A program made the position numbers and the translations under genes. This document shows positions 10,894 through 61,795 of a stretch of DNA of 64,000 nt, piece after piece; positions within the stretch are counted from its first letter, which is position 1, and every line of letters begins with the position of its first letter. The notes beneath the pieces are model-generated. The model was given only the letters and a program-made list of their open reading frames with translations, was not told where the DNA came from and made no database searches. This stretch comes from Bacteroidetes bacterium MED-G13 (GTDB taxonomy: Bacteria; Bacteroidota; Bacteroidia; Flavobacteriales; Flavobacteriaceae): NCBI GenBank assembly GCA_002457735.1, contig NTKO01000002.1, positions 1 to 64,000 on the forward strand, read 5' to 3'.

Positions 10894-12321
10894 ATGAATA
10901 TTACCGCTGATTCTGTTTGGTTAAATTGTTTAAAGTTCGTCAAAGACAATATTCAACCACAGGCATTTAAAACTTGGTTCGAGCCAATAAAAGCTGTTAA
11001 ATTAGCAGATAATGTTTTGAGCATAGAAGTCCCTAGTAAATTTTTTTATGAGTGGTTAGAAGAGCATTATGTAAAAATTTTAAAAGTTTCTTTACAAAAA
11101 TCTCTAGGCGATGAAGCCAAATTAGTATATGTAATTAAAATGGAGAATACTTTTGGAAACTCCCAACCATTCACAGAAAAAATACCAAGTTCAAACACTA
11201 GTTCGTTTTCAGTTCAAAACACTACCACCCCAATCAATAGAAATATTCCTGAGTTAAAAAATCCTTTTATTATTCCAGGAATCAAAAATGTCAAAGTTGA
11301 ATCTCAATTAAATCCAAACTATACTTTTGAAAATTTTTTGGAAGGTGATTCAAACCGACTAGCTAGAAATGCTGGTATAGCAGTTTCAAATAAGCCAGGT
11401 GGAACTTCTTTCAATCCTTTTCTTATTTTTGGCGGTGTTGGTTTAGGAAAAACGCATCTTGCAAATGCAATTGGTATAGAAATCAAAAAGAAATATCCTG
11501 AAAAAACTGTTTTATATACAACAGCTGAAAAATTTACACAACAATACATAGATGCTATAAAAAAGAATAATCGCAATGACTTTATTTACTTCTATCAGGT
11601 TATTGATACTTTAATAATTGATGATATTCAGTTCTTTTCAGGTAAACCTGGAACTCAGGATGTTTTCTTCCACATATTCAATCACCTACATCAAAATGGA
11701 AAACAAGTAGTTCTAACCAGTGATAAAGCTCCCGTTGATATGCAGGACATTGAACTAAGACTTTTATCAAGATTTAAATGGGGACTTTCTGCAGAATTAC
11801 AAAAACCTGATTTTGAAACACGAGTTTCTATACTTAAAAATAAATTATACCGTGATGGTATTGAAATGGATGATGATATAGTTAACTATGTTGCAAAAAA
11901 TATTAAAACAAATGTAAGAGAATTAGAAGGTGCAATAATTTCCTTAATTGCTCAGGCTTCTTTTAATAGAAAGGAAATAAACCTATCTCTCGCAGCTGAA
12001 ATCATTGAAAAGTTTGTTAAAAATTCGAAAAGAGAAATTTCTATTGACTATATTCAAAAAATAGTTTCTGATTATTTCCAAATGGACATTCCAACACTAC
12101 AATCAAAAACAAGAAAAAGACATATTGTACAGGCTAGACAACTTGCAATGTTTTTTGCTAAAAAATATACAAAAGCATCCCTTGCAAGTATTGGATCGCA
12201 GATTGGCAAAAGGGATCATGCTACCGTTTTACATGCATGTAAAACTGTTGATAATTTATCATCCACTGACAAACAATTTAGAAAGTTTGTTGAAGATTTA
12301 GGTAAAAAGTTGTCTGTTTAA
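10894..12321 (+). CDS. dnaA: Chromosomal replication initiator DnaA
   Basis: NPFLIFGGVGLGKTHLANAIG Walker A, TLIIDDIQFFSGK Walker B, C-terminal KRDHATVLHACKTV. Confidence 0.99.
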   Translation: MNITADSVWLNCLKFVKDNIQPQAFKTWFEPIKAVKLADNVLSIEVPSKFFYEWLEEHYVKILKVSLQKSLGDEAKLVYVIKMENTFGNSQPFTEKIPSSNTSSFSVQNTTTPINRNIPELKNPFIIPGIKNVKVESQLNPNYTFENFLEGDSNRLARNAGIAVSNKPGGTSFNPFLIFGGVGLGKTHLANAIGIEIKKKYPEKTVLYTTAEKFTQQYIDAIKKNNRNDFIYFYQVIDTLIIDDIQFFSGKPGTQDVFFHIFNHLHQNGKQVVLTSDKAPVDMQDIELRLLSRFKWGLSAELQKPDFETRVSILKNKLYRDGIEMDDDIVNYVAKNIKTNVRELEGAIISLIAQASFNRKEINLSLAAEIIEKFVKNSKREISIDYIQKIVSDYFQMDIPTLQSKTRKRHIVQARQLAMFFAKKYTKASLASIGSQIGKRDHATVLHACKTVDNLSSTDKQFRKFVEDLGKKLSV

Positions 12322-17141: not shown

Positions 17142-17492
17142 ATGAATAGTATTATTAAAGACATTCAAGACGATTTAAAGGAAGCCAAAGTGCTTCCCTC
17201 CTTCAGTTCAGGTGATACAATTACTGTCTATTATGAAATTAAAGAAGGATCGAAAACTAGAACACAGTTCTTTAAAGGTATTGTATTACAAAGAAGAGGT
17301 GAAGACGCAACTGAAACTTTCACTATTAGAAAAATGTCTGGAAATATAGGTGTAGAAAGGATATTTCCAGTAAATTCACCATCATTACAAAAAATAGAAT
17401 TAAATAAAAAAGGAAAAGTTAGAAGATCCCGAATTTTTTATTTTAGAAACCTAACAGGTAAGAAAGCAAAAATTAAAGAAAAAAGAGTTTAA
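17142..17492 (+). CDS. rplS: 50S ribosomal protein L19 (start re-assigned to ATG 17142)
   Basis: MNSIIKDIQDDLKEAKVLPSFSSGDTITVYYEIKEGSKTRTQFFKGIVLQRRG. The track's TTG start at 17109 overlaps the promoter-like element. Confidence 0.96.
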   Translation: MNSIIKDIQDDLKEAKVLPSFSSGDTITVYYEIKEGSKTRTQFFKGIVLQRRGEDATETFTIRKMSGNIGVERIFPVNSPSLQKIELNKKGKVRRSRIFYFRNLTGKKAKIKEKRV

Positions 17493-17587
17493 ATTACTTA
17501 ACAATTGTTAATAACTATAGTTTAAAACTAGTTAATATCTTTCGTGATTTTAATTTTATTTTTTTCCATTTACTTATTATAATTGTA

Positions 17588-18007
17588 CAGGATTTGTAGT
17601 GGACTCCTTAAACGGACAAACAGCTTGCATTGCAAGTCAAATCCTAAGAACGTTCTTTAACATGATTACTTAGAAAGATTTAAGCAAGTCTTAAATTAAC
17701 TTCGAAAAAATTATTTAAGTGTGCCTGCACAATTAAAATGTTTTTTCATCTGCTAGGGTAACTTAGCAGTAAGTGAGGATTATGAAATTAAGTAATAAGC
17801 CTATATTAAATGTGGCCCCAGGGTCATTTTTAAATAAGTAATCAAGAACTTCAGAGCAGAAAATTTCCTTGAGAAGAGAGTAAGCCAGAAAGTTCAGCAA
17901 TTGAGAAAATATGACTGGCATTGAAGCAATTCAGAATCAGAAACAATTTTCGAAATTTAGAAAGCCATATTAGAGTAGCAATACTTAAATATGGCTTTCG
18001 CTTTTTT
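17588..18007 (+). ncRNA. Candidate structured non-coding RNA between rplS and icd (identity unknown)
   Basis: No long ORF. Promoter-like TATAATTG at 17578. Several hairpins: AGGATTTG/CAAATCCT, CTTGC-att-GCAAG, CTGCTA-gggtaact-TAGCAG, GCCAG...CTGGC. Ends in a perfect 12-bp stem with inner GCAA tetraloop and T-tract. Confidence 0.55.
17960..18007 (+). terminator. Rho-independent terminator
   Basis: GAAAGCCATATT (17960-17971) pairs perfectly with AATATGGCTTTC (17988-17999); inner AGTA-GCAA-TACT hairpin; followed by cgcTTTTTT. Confidence 0.85.
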
Positions 18008-18050
18008 ATAAACTATTATCATTTTTAACATTTATTTTATAACCATTCTT

Positions 18051-18058
18051 TATATTTG
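18051..18058 (+). promoter_or_regulatory. -7 promoter element (TATATTTG) for icd
   Basis: TATATTTG 22 nt before the icd ATG. Confidence 0.5.
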
Positions 18059-18080
18059 AAACTTATAAAAACATTGATTA

Positions 18081-20291
18081 ATGTTGAAAATTATTTATAC
18101 TAAAACTGATGAAGCCCCAGCACTAGCTACTGCTTCGCTCCTTCCAATTTTACAAGCATTTACCAAATCTTCAAAAATTAAGTTTGAAACAAGAGATATA
18201 TCATTGTCTGCAAGGATTTTAGCAACATTTAACGACTTTTTAGGTAGTAAAGTCAAATATGAAAATGATCTAGAATTTTTAAGTAAAGTAGTAAAAGATC
18301 CAAATGCAAATATTATTAAATTACCTAATATTAGCGCATCTATACCGCAGCTAAAAAAGGCAATAATTGAATTGCAATTAAAAGGATATCCACTTCCAGA
18401 CTACCCTGAAAAAGCTACAAATGATAATGAATTAATTATAAAATCAATATATGATAAAATTAAAGGAAGTGCAGTTAACCCGATTCTCAGAGAAGGCAAT
18501 TCAGACAGACGTGTCCCATCAGCAATCAAAAACTACATAAAAACCAACCCACACAAATTGGGTAAATGGGAAAAAAAATCAAAAACTCATGTTTCAACTA
18601 TGAGTAATGGAGATTTTAGAAACAATGAAAAATCTAAAACATCAAAAAAACATGAATTGTTGAATATTTATTTTTATGATCATAATAATAAAAAAACAAT
18701 TCTTAAGGAAAATATTACAGTTCATAAGGGGACAATTATTGATACAAGTTTTTTGAATATTGAAAAACTTCACAAATTTTTTGAAAAACAAATAAAAAAA
18801 TGTGTTGACGAAAAAATCATCTTGTCTTTACATCTAAAAGCATCAATGATGAAAGTTAGTGATCCTATCATTTTTGGACATATGCTAAAGGTTTATTTTA
18901 AAGATTTTATTTCAAACAATAAAAAAATTCTTACAGATTTAAATGTAAATTTTAATAGTGGTCTTTCAATTTTTTATGAAAAAATTGAGTCTCTTGACAA
19001 AAAAGAAAAAAATAAAATTATAAGAGAAATGGAGGATATATTTGTAAATAGTGCTGAAATTGCAATGGTTGATTCTGAAAAAAATATATCAAACTTTCAT
19101 GTACCAAGTGATTTAATTATTGATGCATCTATGCCCGCAATGATAAAAAGTTCAGGAAAAATGTGGAATAGAAATGGAGAGTTAAAAGATACTAATGCTA
19201 TAATTCCAGACAGTACATATGCTTCAATCTATCAAGCAACAATTGATTTTTGCAAGGAAAAAGGTGCATTTAATCCGTCAACAATGGGGACTGTTCAAAA
19301 TGTAGGGTTAATGGCAAAAAAAGCCGAAGAGTATGGGTCTCATGACAAAACATTTGAAATAAAAAAATCTGGACAAATCAAAGTTCAAACAAAAGATGGA
19401 AAAAATATAGCATCACATATTGTAAATAAGGGTGATATCTGGCGAATGTGCCTTGTCAGAAAAGATGCAATTAAAGATTGGATTAAACTTGCAATTTCAA
19501 GAGCAAAACAAACAAATTTCCCAACTATATTCTGGTTAGACAAGAATAGACCACATGATTTAGAAATAATTAAAGTCGTAAAAAAAGAATTGCAAAAAAT
19601 TAACGACTCAATGCTGAATATACAAATTATGAGTCCCTATGATGCAACAGTTTTTACATTAAATAAAGTGAAAGAAGGGAAAAGCGTCATTTCTGTTTCT
19701 GGAAATGTTTTAAGAGACTATTTAACAGATCTATTTCCGATATTAGAGTTGGGGACAAGTGCAAAAATGTTGTCAATTGTACCTCTTATGAATGGAGGGA
19801 AACTATTCGAAACCGGAGCAGGTGGCTCTGCACCAAAACATGTTCAACAACTTTTAAAAGAAAATCATCTTAGATGGGACTCTCTTGGTGAATTTTTAGC
19901 CGTTTCTGTTGCATTAGACGATATCTCCTTAAAAAACCCAAGTGCTAAAATCCTTTCAGTTTGTCTAAATAAAGCAATAGAAGAACTTTTAAAAAATAAT
20001 AAATCTCCTTCAAGAAAAGTTGGCGAAATTGATAATAGAGGTAGCCATTTTTATCTAGCTTTATTTTGGTCAAAATTTTTAAGCGAACAAAATGAAAATA
20101 GAAAAATTAAAATTGAGTTTTCAAAAGTTCATATAGAACTATTGAAAAATGAAAATAAAATAATGAATGAAATTAATTCAAAACAAGGAAAAAGCGTAGA
20201 CTTAAAAGGTTATTATAAAACTGATAATTTTATTATTGATAAAATAATGCGACCCTCTGTCTTTTTAAATAATATCATTGATAACATTTAA
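18081..20291 (+). CDS. icd: NADP-dependent isocitrate dehydrogenase, monomeric type
   Basis: 736 aa; MLKIIYTKTDEAPALATASLLPILQAF, SNGDFRNNEKS, FETGAGGSAPKHVQQ, IDNRGSHFYLALFW. Confidence 0.97.
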   Translation: MLKIIYTKTDEAPALATASLLPILQAFTKSSKIKFETRDISLSARILATFNDFLGSKVKYENDLEFLSKVVKDPNANIIKLPNISASIPQLKKAIIELQLKGYPLPDYPEKATNDNELIIKSIYDKIKGSAVNPILREGNSDRRVPSAIKNYIKTNPHKLGKWEKKSKTHVSTMSNGDFRNNEKSKTSKKHELLNIYFYDHNNKKTILKENITVHKGTIIDTSFLNIEKLHKFFEKQIKKCVDEKIILSLHLKASMMKVSDPIIFGHMLKVYFKDFISNNKKILTDLNVNFNSGLSIFYEKIESLDKKEKNKIIREMEDIFVNSAEIAMVDSEKNISNFHVPSDLIIDASMPAMIKSSGKMWNRNGELKDTNAIIPDSTYASIYQATIDFCKEKGAFNPSTMGTVQNVGLMAKKAEEYGSHDKTFEIKKSGQIKVQTKDGKNIASHIVNKGDIWRMCLVRKDAIKDWIKLAISRAKQTNFPTIFWLDKNRPHDLEIIKVVKKELQKINDSMLNIQIMSPYDATVFTLNKVKEGKSVISVSGNVLRDYLTDLFPILELGTSAKMLSIVPLMNGGKLFETGAGGSAPKHVQQLLKENHLRWDSLGEFLAVSVALDDISLKNPSAKILSVCLNKAIEELLKNNKSPSRKVGEIDNRGSHFYLALFWSKFLSEQNENRKIKIEFSKVHIELLKNENKIMNEINSKQGKSVDLKGYYKTDNFIIDKIMRPSVFLNNIIDNI

Positions 20292-59352: not shown

Positions 59353-60154
59353 TTTTTATAAGATCAGCTTTAATCAATTGTGTTAATTTTTTTTTTCTCT
59401 GATTAATTGACATGTATTCAAGAGTTGGAAAAACATAATCAACTGGTGAATAACTGCCAATTTTTTTGAAGTCAAGAACTTTAATTATATATAAATTTAA
59501 AGAATCTTTACTTTGTAAAAAAGAATAATTTTTTAAAGATTTTAATTTTTGTTTGTTTAAAAATGAAAATATTTTTTTTAAATCCTTTTCAGCTATCCAA
59601 CTTTTTGTATCATATGAATAATCTATAAACCTGTAGGAAATTGAATCAAGAAATTTCTGATTATTTTTAAAATTTCTTAGTTTGTTTCTCACATCACCAA
59701 TATCAGAAAAATCTTTTGGTACTTTCAAATATGCAAGTTTAAATATATTATCTTTTAATTTAAACAAGTCAATGTTTTTTTTATACAAGTTTTCAATTTC
59801 AGTTGTATCAATTTCTAAATTAATTGAAGAATTTATTAAAGCATCTAAATATGCTGTTGAATATAACTCAGATTTATAATTTTTAACCAGTTTTTCTAAA
59901 GAATTAAGATCTTGTATAGTAAGATTTAATTTTGCTTTTTCGATAAGAATCTTGTTTACAGCCCATTCATTAATAAGTTTATTAATGATTATTATTGAAT
60001 CTTTATAGTTGGTCTTATTAAATAATTCAGTTAGTTGGCTTTTCTTAAGAATTTGATCCTTAAACTTTGCAATGTTTTGTGAATTATCTTCATTGAAATC
60101 ACTACATGAAAATAAAACTAAAACTAAATAAATATTAAATTTTATCTTTAACAA
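59318..60154 (-). CDS. Lipoprotein related to SurA/PpiC chaperones, parvulin domain degenerate
   Basis: Lipobox LFSCSDFNED, SurA_N-like helical region; no clear parvulin signature; between two PPIase genes. Confidence 0.6.
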   Translation of the reverse strand: MLKIKFNIYLVLVLFSCSDFNEDNSQNIAKFKDQILKKSQLTELFNKTNYKDSIIIINKLINEWAVNKILIEKAKLNLTIQDLNSLEKLVKNYKSELYSTAYLDALINSSINLEIDTTEIENLYKKNIDLFKLKDNIFKLAYLKVPKDFSDIGDVRNKLRNFKNNQKFLDSISYRFIDYSYDTKSWIAEKDLKKIFSFLNKQKLKSLKNYSFLQSKDSLNLYIIKVLDFKKIGSYSPVDYVFPTLEYMSINQRKKKLTQLIKADLIKNAIQNNELEIF

Positions 60155-60160
60155 CTAATT

Positions 60161-61795
60161 TTATTTATACATTTTTTTTAATCTTCTCATAGCTTTTGAA
60201 TAAAGAACAATAGAATTTGTTTTTCTTAAATTTTCAATCCAATTATTTTCCACTTTTTTTTGATAATCGGCAATTATTTTACCTCTATTGGTTTCAAAGG
60301 AATCGTATTTATCAATATTTTTGATATAGTATTCTCTAAGTACAATTGAATCTTTTTCACCAATTGACCAAACTTTTTCTTGCATAATATTAAACATCAG
60401 CAGTCCTTCTCTGTACTCTGTTAAAATATTATTATATTCACTATTTTCTCTTTCTAAATCTTTCTTGTATTCTTCAAGTAATATATCTCTATAAAATCTT
60501 GAAAAAAGGTTATTTGCTACTTGTTCAAAATCTTTACTTGAAATGAAACTTTGATTTTTTTCAACATACTGAAGAAAATCTTTTTTAAATATAGTTTTCT
60601 GATTTATTACAAATAATGGTTCGTGAAATTTGAGATCATTGTAATTTATCTTCCACTTATTTTTAGTTATTGAGTCGTTTAATAATGGAATAATAAATTT
60701 ATAATCAATGTTCTCCGTTGATAAATTATATTTATCATCTAAAAATTGATTAAAAGAATTAGATATATATTCATTTCTTGCACCTCTTCTTATCTTACTT
60801 AGAATAGATGGTTTTAATTCGTCAAAACTTTTAATTTCATTTCTTGATAATAACTTTATGATATGCCAGCCAAACTTGGTTTCAATGGGATTAGAAATGT
60901 CTCCAATATTCTTTAAAGAAAATGCAGCGTTTTCAAAAGGAATTGAGTTTATTTGACCAGATGAAAATTTATTTAGCACACCACCTCTTGCAGCAGACCT
61001 TTTATCTTGAGAATATAATTTAGCCATTGATTCGAAAGATGAACCTTTATTTATTGAATCGAGTATTTTGGTAATTTTTTCTTTTGAGTTTGAGCTTTTT
61101 TTATAAATCATGATATGGGCTACTGAAATCTCTCCCAAAGATTCTCTTTTATCAGTTACTTTTAAGATATGAAAACCAAATTTAGTTTTGAAAGGCCTTG
61201 AAACTTTACCAACCTCAGTATTATATGCAATATTTTCAAATTCATATATCATTTTGAATGCTGAAAAGTAACCAAGATCTTCAATAATTAACTGTTTATC
61301 AGAATTATGTTCCTTATTAAATATTTCAATATTTTTTTCCAAAAAGGGTAGTCGTAAATTTGATAATCTGTTGTAAATTTCAGAGGAATCATTGGTTTGA
61401 TCATTATTTCTGATTAAAATATGTGAAACTTGAACTTCATTTCTGGTTCTCTCATAGGCCTCTTCTACTAATCTTTCTTGTGACTCGCTATCAGTCAAAT
61501 AACCCTTTAATAATTGATTTTTATATTTTTTATATTCTTTTTGATAATCTTCATTTTTGTCATACCCCAAATCATAAGCTTCTGCTAACTTTAGTTTATA
61601 ATTAATGAAAAGTTCTAAATAACTCATATAATCATTTTCCTTACTATCTTCAACTAAATCAATATTCTTGTTGTAAACTCTATTAAATTCACCTAGTGTG
61701 GTTTCAATATCATTTATTTTAAATAAAACTAAATCTTTTTCATTTTGTGAATAAAAAATTGAAGTAAATAAAAGAAAAACTAAAAGTCTTTTCAT
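60161..61795 (-). CDS. Periplasmic peptidyl-prolyl isomerase with two parvulin domains (PpiC/SurA-type)
   Basis: VSHILIRNND...VGKVSRPFKTKFGFHILKVTDKR and VAHIMIYKKS...GDISNPIETKFGWHIIKLLSR. Confidence 0.92.
   Translation of the reverse strand: MKRLLVFLLFTSIFYSQNEKDLVLFKINDIETTLGEFNRVYNKNIDLVEDSKENDYMSYLELFINYKLKLAEAYDLGYDKNEDYQKEYKKYKNQLLKGYLTDSESQERLVEEAYERTRNEVQVSHILIRNNDQTNDSSEIYNRLSNLRLPFLEKNIEIFNKEHNSDKQLIIEDLGYFSAFKMIYEFENIAYNTEVGKVSRPFKTKFGFHILKVTDKRESLGEISVAHIMIYKKSSNSKEKITKILDSINKGSSFESMAKLYSQDKRSAARGGVLNKFSSGQINSIPFENAAFSLKNIGDISNPIETKFGWHIIKLLSRNEIKSFDELKPSILSKIRRGARNEYISNSFNQFLDDKYNLSTENIDYKFIIPLLNDSITKNKWKINYNDLKFHEPLFVINQKTIFKKDFLQYVEKNQSFISSKDFEQVANNLFSRFYRDILLEEYKKDLERENSEYNNILTEYREGLLMFNIMQEKVWSIGEKDSIVLREYYIKNIDKYDSFETNRGKIIADYQKKVENNWIENLRKTNSIVLYSKAMRRLKKMYK

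Follow-up and report, generated by a model that had tools for sequence, protein, structure and literature searches.

The gap between rplS and icd in a small-genome member of the Flavobacteriaceae (G000:C12) very probably harbours an independent gene for a large structured non-coding RNA (ncRNA), with a structure that is conserved and covaries among relatives; its expression is inferred, there being no transcript data. We read the RNA as a single-copy, independent gene founding a new family of large ncRNAs confined to the Flavobacteriaceae, the structured RNA gene itself being the part of that reading held to be very likely. The stretch of DNA analysed as a whole—the window—is 64,000 nt long and belongs to an assembly that is 82% complete.

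The gap (17493–18080) comprises 588 non-coding nucleotides, in which all sense ORFs are ≤35 aa. Interior gaps were ranked by ORF coverage, using ORFs ≥75 aa with ATG starts. A longer run of 811 nt (59353–60163) is not truly empty, as it contains a 278-aa TTG-start gene, so the rplS–icd gap is the longest interior non-coding gap. Two claims of the original prediction, that this 588-bp gap was the longest without coding sequence and that it held no substantial ORF, therefore stood, the former once the 811-nt run had been explained. Features of the locus, in window coordinates, are as follows.

17142..17492, + strand: rplS (ribosomal protein L19), 5′ neighbour of the RNA (ORF analysis)
17498..17540, no strand assigned: conserved palindromic DNA element TTAACAATTGTTAATAA...GTTAATATC, between rplS and the RNA promoter (homologue comparison)
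17578..17585, + strand: promoter-like TATAATTG (−7 element) (sequence; TATATTTAG / TATAAATTAG in the same position in homologues)
17588..18006, + strand: large structured ncRNA gene, very likely, with a predicted transcript of ~419 nt (folding z, covariation, no Rfam match)
17589..17645, + strand: 5′ hairpin domain P1, AGGATTTG/CAAATCCT at 17589–17596/17638–17645 (folding, sequence)
17652..17662, + strand: boxA-like GTTCTTTAACA (fits the boxA consensus exactly; conserved position)
17663..17844, + strand: multibranched domain closed by long-range helix P2 (folding, genus covariation)
17846..17957, + strand: 3′ domain of two helices (genus covariation, comparison with G010)
17960..18006, + strand: intrinsic terminator GAAAGCCATATT...AATATGGCTTTC-GCTTTTTT, with apical GTAGCAATAC (sequence; family-wide signature)
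18051..18058, + strand: TATATTTG, icd’s own promoter-like −7 site, 3′ of the RNA terminator (sequence and homologues)
18081..20291, + strand: icd (monomeric isocitrate dehydrogenase), 3′ neighbour of the RNA (ORF analysis)

Architecture, folding and covariation

The 5′ end of the RNA is inferred from the position of the promoter and is placed only to within a few nucleotides. P1 encloses GCTTGC/GCAAGT, and its inner hairpin (17623–17628/17632–17637) is compensated in G010, the nearest relative within the genus, whose RNA is 84% identical. Directly 3′ of the boxA-like site begins P2, an exact 10-bp helix (17663–17672/17835–17844), inside whose domain lie hairpins at 17677–17697, 17704–17747 (the region of invariant GTGTGCCTGCACAATT), 17750–17769 and 17806–17833. 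The first helix of the 3′ domain pairs 17846–17851 with 17889–17894 and the second pairs 17899–17910 with 17946–17957; the terminator stem, running from 17960 to 17999, is a perfect 12 bp. At ~419 nt the RNA of the window is compact, against ~500 nt in most of its genus.

The original prediction had described a promoter-like sequence at 17578, a series of inverted repeats (AGGATTTG/CAAATCCT around GCTTGC/GCAAGT; TTTAAG/CTTAAA; CTGCTA/TAGCAG; TGGCC/GGTCA; GCCAG/CTGGC) and an end in a perfect 12-bp terminator, all of which are present. It had overlooked the most informative features, namely the 10-bp long-range helix P2 and the boxA-like element. Its suggested check, alignment of the rplS–icd gaps of relatives in search of covariation, revealed conserved, covarying structure at the levels of genus and family.

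Positions 17588–18007 fold with a minimum free energy of −106.7 kcal/mol (z = −5.25), a stability equalled by none of 100 dinucleotide shuffles. The mean folding z across 78 homologues was −5.4; these homologues were selected for carrying the boxA-like motif, and the folded sequence included the terminator.

When the gap was used as a query, homologous gaps were found in most genomes of the same genus. The 13 rplS–icd gaps of the window genus gave 141 consensus pairs, with 91.4% of cells paired and 48 of the 141 pairs double-changed; the 113 double-changed cells compare with 38.6±5.5 in shuffles (0/500), and sliding the partners reduced pairing to 35–43%. For 35 sequences from a sister clade (Winogradskyella, Algibacter, Flaviramulus and others), the corresponding values were 136 pairs, 93.8% of cells paired and 84/136 pairs double-changed, with 464 double-changed cells against 147.9±14.4 in shuffles (0/500) and pairing of 39–44% on sliding. 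As the alignments in which pairs were counted also supplied the consensus structures, the percentages alone are biased upward, and it is the shuffles and slides that serve as controls. In both groups the consensus fold is multibranched, with 22–25 helices. Compensation can also be read straight from the sequences of the window and G010, where GCTTGC/GCAAGT becomes ACTTG/CAAGT, CTGCTA/TAGCAG becomes CATCAAG/CTTGGTG and, in the first helix of the 3′ domain, GAACTT/AAGTTC becomes GAACTG/CAGTTC.

Within the P2 domain, GTGTGCCTGCACAATT (17714–17737) is invariant in 13/13 genomes of the genus while the adjacent hairpins vary; a covarying hairpin, its loop UGUANG, is found in a similar place in the sister clade. 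This region could conceivably be a protein-binding loop.

Position, distribution and descent in the Flavobacteriaceae

The RNA has its own promoter-like site and terminator, and icd has a separate −7 site after that terminator. One genome (G160) keeps the RNA after rplS with icd absent there; another (G181) has the RNA and icd together, >800 kb from rplS; and in many genomes of the Winogradskyella group a gene of ~190 aa separates the RNA from icd. From these arrangements we conclude that the RNA belongs to neither neighbour. The intervening ORF (seen in L041, L043, L045, L050 and others) encodes pentapeptide-like repeats (...NCTFINCNF...).

Relatives found through rplS were Flavobacteriaceae, and across this family the RNA, 420–530 nt in length, was found in roughly two thirds of sampled genera, carriers including the named genera Winogradskyella, Maribacter, Algibacter, Aquimarina and Cellulophaga. 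Of 151 family genomes drawn evenly, 92 had the terminator signature (82 of the 126 good ones), mostly in one copy, and a reversed-pattern control had no matches. For the RNA the figure is a lower bound because the pattern misses the window genus; it is also inexact, since ordinary short hairpins account for a few of the matches. A covariance model of the 3′ domain had matches in 53/151 family genomes, one in each except G273. In that genome a second copy of the RNA lies on contig C91 (L276) before an icd-like gene, and duplication or contamination is possible. At the rplS locus itself, boxA and terminator together placed the RNA in 38 of 61 family genomes, several of the ‘none’ calls being false negatives: automatic gap calling mislabelled the carriers L124, L007 and L248 because of chance antisense ORFs.

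Outside the family, 29 rplS loci representing other families of the order all lacked the RNA. In the order-wide sample, those matches to the terminator pattern that fell outside the family were short ordinary hairpins, in two genomes only. Covariance model R1, built on the 3′ domain of Winogradskyella-like RNAs, had no matches in 293 genomes of the class, which is weak evidence, as that sample lacked a known positive. As far as tested, the RNA is thus confined to the Flavobacteriaceae. Within the family, genus g80—which we take to be perhaps Flavobacterium—has a gap of just 240–290 nt, or a different gene, after rplS, and the RNA is missing between rplS and icd. Because about a third or more of the sampled genera lack the signature, the RNA is not essential family-wide.

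For most of the body of the RNA, no alignment is possible among its three clades (window genus, Winogradskyella-like and Maribacter-like). What they have in common is position, the boxA-like site, the helix right after it, the last long helix and the terminator AAAGCCATATC…hairpin…GATATGGCTTT, a motif at the RNA 3′ end that is also given as AAGCCATATC...GATATGGCTTT. A Winogradskyella-like nucleotide profile matched 17/17 Maribacter-type RNAs (E 2e-11 to 7e-4), mainly in the last helix and terminator; its match to the window was weak (E 0.01) and lay in the terminator. Neither the window genus nor the Maribacter clade had a significant match to model R1. The homology of the window-genus RNA to those of the other clades is therefore an inference that rests mainly on position and layout (boxA, helices, terminator) and not on significant profile matches. 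Apical GTAGCAATAC is common to the terminators of the window genus, L257, L277 and others, which fits common descent.

Alternative explanations

Three alternatives to an independent structured RNA gene are each very unlikely. The first is that the RNA is a cis-regulatory leader of icd—a riboswitch or attenuator—ending in a regulated terminator. In its favour, the RNA precedes icd in most genomes, its terminator end resembles transcriptional attenuators, and RNA motifs associated with icd have been described in Proteobacteria (PMC8632094). Against it stand the promoter-like TATATTTG between the terminator and the icd start codon, the retention of the RNA without icd in G160, the ~190-aa gene between the two in many Winogradskyella-group genomes, and a size of 420–530 nt with many domains, far above that usual for a leader.

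The second holds that the conserved feature acts at the level of DNA, for example as a replication origin near dnaA, and that RNA structure is secondary. The gene dnaA lies at 10894–12321, ~5 kb upstream of the RNA, and in several complete genomes from other genera rplS and the RNA are found ~9–13 kb from the contig start; dnaA is 5–13 kb away. Just upstream of the RNA is the palindromic element, with a family consensus of ~TTATTAACAATTGTTAATAA...GTTcATAAC...GTTGATATC. The element carries DnaA-box-like TTATNAACA sites, which are nearly restricted to it over the initial 20 kb of both G160 and G175, and the GC skew changes sign broadly around the locus in the window. However, compensatory changes over >80 base pairs demand a fold in RNA (or single strands), the palindromic element lies outside the structured part, and GC skew points to no clear origin, its minima not coinciding in other genomes. 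The element itself, which is mostly absent in genomes without the RNA, is possibly an origin element or an operator.

The third supposes a conserved short ORF, which would make the RNA dual-function or the mRNA of a small protein. Short chance ORFs do exist in individual sequences, but sense ORFs ≥15 codons are common to at most 11/35 sequences in the sister clade or 6/13 in the genus, and ORF strand and length vary among species.

The remaining alternative, that a known housekeeping RNA (tmRNA, RNase P RNA, SRP RNA or 6S RNA) is present here in divergent form, is all but excluded: the RNA resembles tmRNA or RNase P RNA in length and is single-copy and highly structured, but it has no Rfam match, RNase P and SRP RNAs are located elsewhere in the genome, tmRNA is located elsewhere in relatives and the 6S fold does not fit.

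The Rfam scan covered 4227 Rfam 15 families, including riboswitches, rRNA and large ncRNA classes, in the window and 11 homologous loci. Nothing matched at the RNA locus in the window, even at E ≤ 5, and gathering thresholds returned nothing in the whole window except two tRNAs. Over the RNA in the 11 homologous loci, the scan at E ≤ 1 gave one chance match only, far below the cut-off; chance matches included one outside the RNA (18.4 bits against a cut-off of 50) and one below threshold in L020 (23.5 bits against 100). The only two real matches in those loci were to the L19-Flavobacteria leader, upstream of rplS.

The candidates were also considered singly. RNase P RNA (RF00010) was not found at the locus, the real one lying at G000:C5:18729-19024 (192 bits), and the same holds for SRP RNA (RF00169), the real one being at G000:C8:10015-10113 (53 bits). 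For tmRNA (RF00023), ARAGORN found none in the window, there was no Rfam match, and 10 of the 11 relatives, G010 from the window genus among them, have a separate tmRNA; the host’s own 82%-complete assembly yielded no tmRNA above the cut-off. 6S RNA (RF00013, or 6S-Flavo RF01685) had no match at E ≤ 5, and the multibranched fold contrasts with the one long hairpin and bubble of 6S, although the genome’s own 6S was not located.

The original prediction had failed to match the RNA to tmRNA, RNase P RNA, SRP RNA or a known riboswitch, and that held in the Rfam 15 scan. Of the two identities it offered, a ‘divergent housekeeping RNA’ is not supported, given RNase P and SRP RNAs elsewhere in the genome and tmRNA elsewhere in relatives, while a ‘lineage-specific large ncRNA’ is supported by the absence of an Rfam match, by covariation in genus and family and by confinement to the Flavobacteriaceae as tested. 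A search of a phage collection gave no match. Nor is the RNA described in the open-licence literature that we searched or in Rfam 15; subscription papers and supplements were outside the scope, and an earlier description is not excluded.

The boxA-like element, proposed mechanism and significance

GTTCTTTAACA matches every position of the boxA consensus GYTCTTTAANA (PMC5725501). Such matches are not rare by themselves (3 found in the window against 1.3 expected), and that in the RNA gains its weight because it is conserved in relatives: GTTCTT[TA] occurs at positions 120–270 in 84 of 98 distinct gaps ≥550 nt, against ~2% of control tiles. Exceptions include GTTCATTGAACA, GTTCATGAACA and GTTCTCTAACA, several carrying GTTCATT/GTTCATGA, as in rRNA leaders. 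Most family members depart from the consensus after GTTCTTTA, the most common form in the family being CGTTCTTTATAT. The family’s rRNA leaders have GTTCATTAACATATTG or GTTCTTTAAAATATTG shortly 5′ of 16S, with the same alternation of T and A. Counting against the boxA reading, the motif can pair with an upstream UAAAG in many homologues.

A further pairing is available in the window and G010, where AAGAAC just 3′ of P2 (17844–17849) can pair with the boxA GTTCTT (17652–17657). It is possible, as an inference from sequence alone, that boxA is exposed in the nascent RNA and sealed on completion of the RNA.

One close parallel is with the leaders of rRNA operons (boxB-boxA-boxC, Nus antitermination). 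There too a hairpin precedes boxA near the start of a long untranslated transcript, with a long-range helix after them; leaders in this family carry GTTC[A/T]TT[A/G]A.ATATTG. Unlike them, this RNA is not followed by rRNA, the letters of its boxA vary (CGTTCTTTATAT in most) and Nus binding is only inferred. On balance we lean, without Nus-binding data, towards a motif that acts as boxA with Nus-modified polymerase, as for rRNA.

Under our preferred reading, that of an independent RNA gene, RNA polymerase would start near 17588 and boxA in the nascent RNA would recruit NusB–S10 (NusE), as in rRNA operons. The polymerase so modified would allow a long untranslated RNA to escape Rho termination and fold co-transcriptionally; the transcript would end near 18006 and then act in trans as a stable structured RNA. 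A ribonucleoprotein scaffold with a growth-linked role is the likeliest form that this action would take, though an inference we put at rather less than an even chance, its partner and target being unidentified. A bolder reading—an undescribed, family-wide class of large RNA, transcribed with boxA and Nus, at the core of a ribonucleoprotein or ribozyme-like particle—is likewise a conjecture we would not favour over its negation.

Large structured bacterial ncRNAs whose function is unknown or partly known include OLE, GOLLD, ROOL, HEARO and raiA. The RNA resembles them in being several hundred nucleotides long, multibranched, covarying, present in few copies per genome, limited to a lineage and without an ORF; it differs in taxa, neighbours and structure, and has no Rfam match. 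None of the five is known to be a boxA transcript. The L19-Flavobacteria leader (RF03130) shares the locus, next to rplS in relatives (L019 1043-1070, L020 1972-1999), but is a 29-nt hairpin upstream of rplS, whereas the RNA lies downstream, and it is not above the cut-off in the window. The nearest published set, the Rfp sRNAs of Flavobacterium psychrophilum (e.g. Rfp18; PMC9723704), which were found by RNA-seq and are described as short (median 176 bp), are also independent structured transcripts from the same family. They differ in length, and g80 lacks the RNA between rplS and icd; the RNA could still be identical with an Rfp located elsewhere.

Large, complex RNAs are uncommon in bacteria, and known examples have led to unusual biology, such as OLE particles and the RNA-only cages of GOLLD and ROOL. 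The RNA described here would add a new class that bears an rRNA-type boxA and is widespread in a dominant marine family of polysaccharide degraders. If boxA works here, Nus-factor control would extend to a dedicated, non-ribosomal ncRNA gene in the Bacteroidota.
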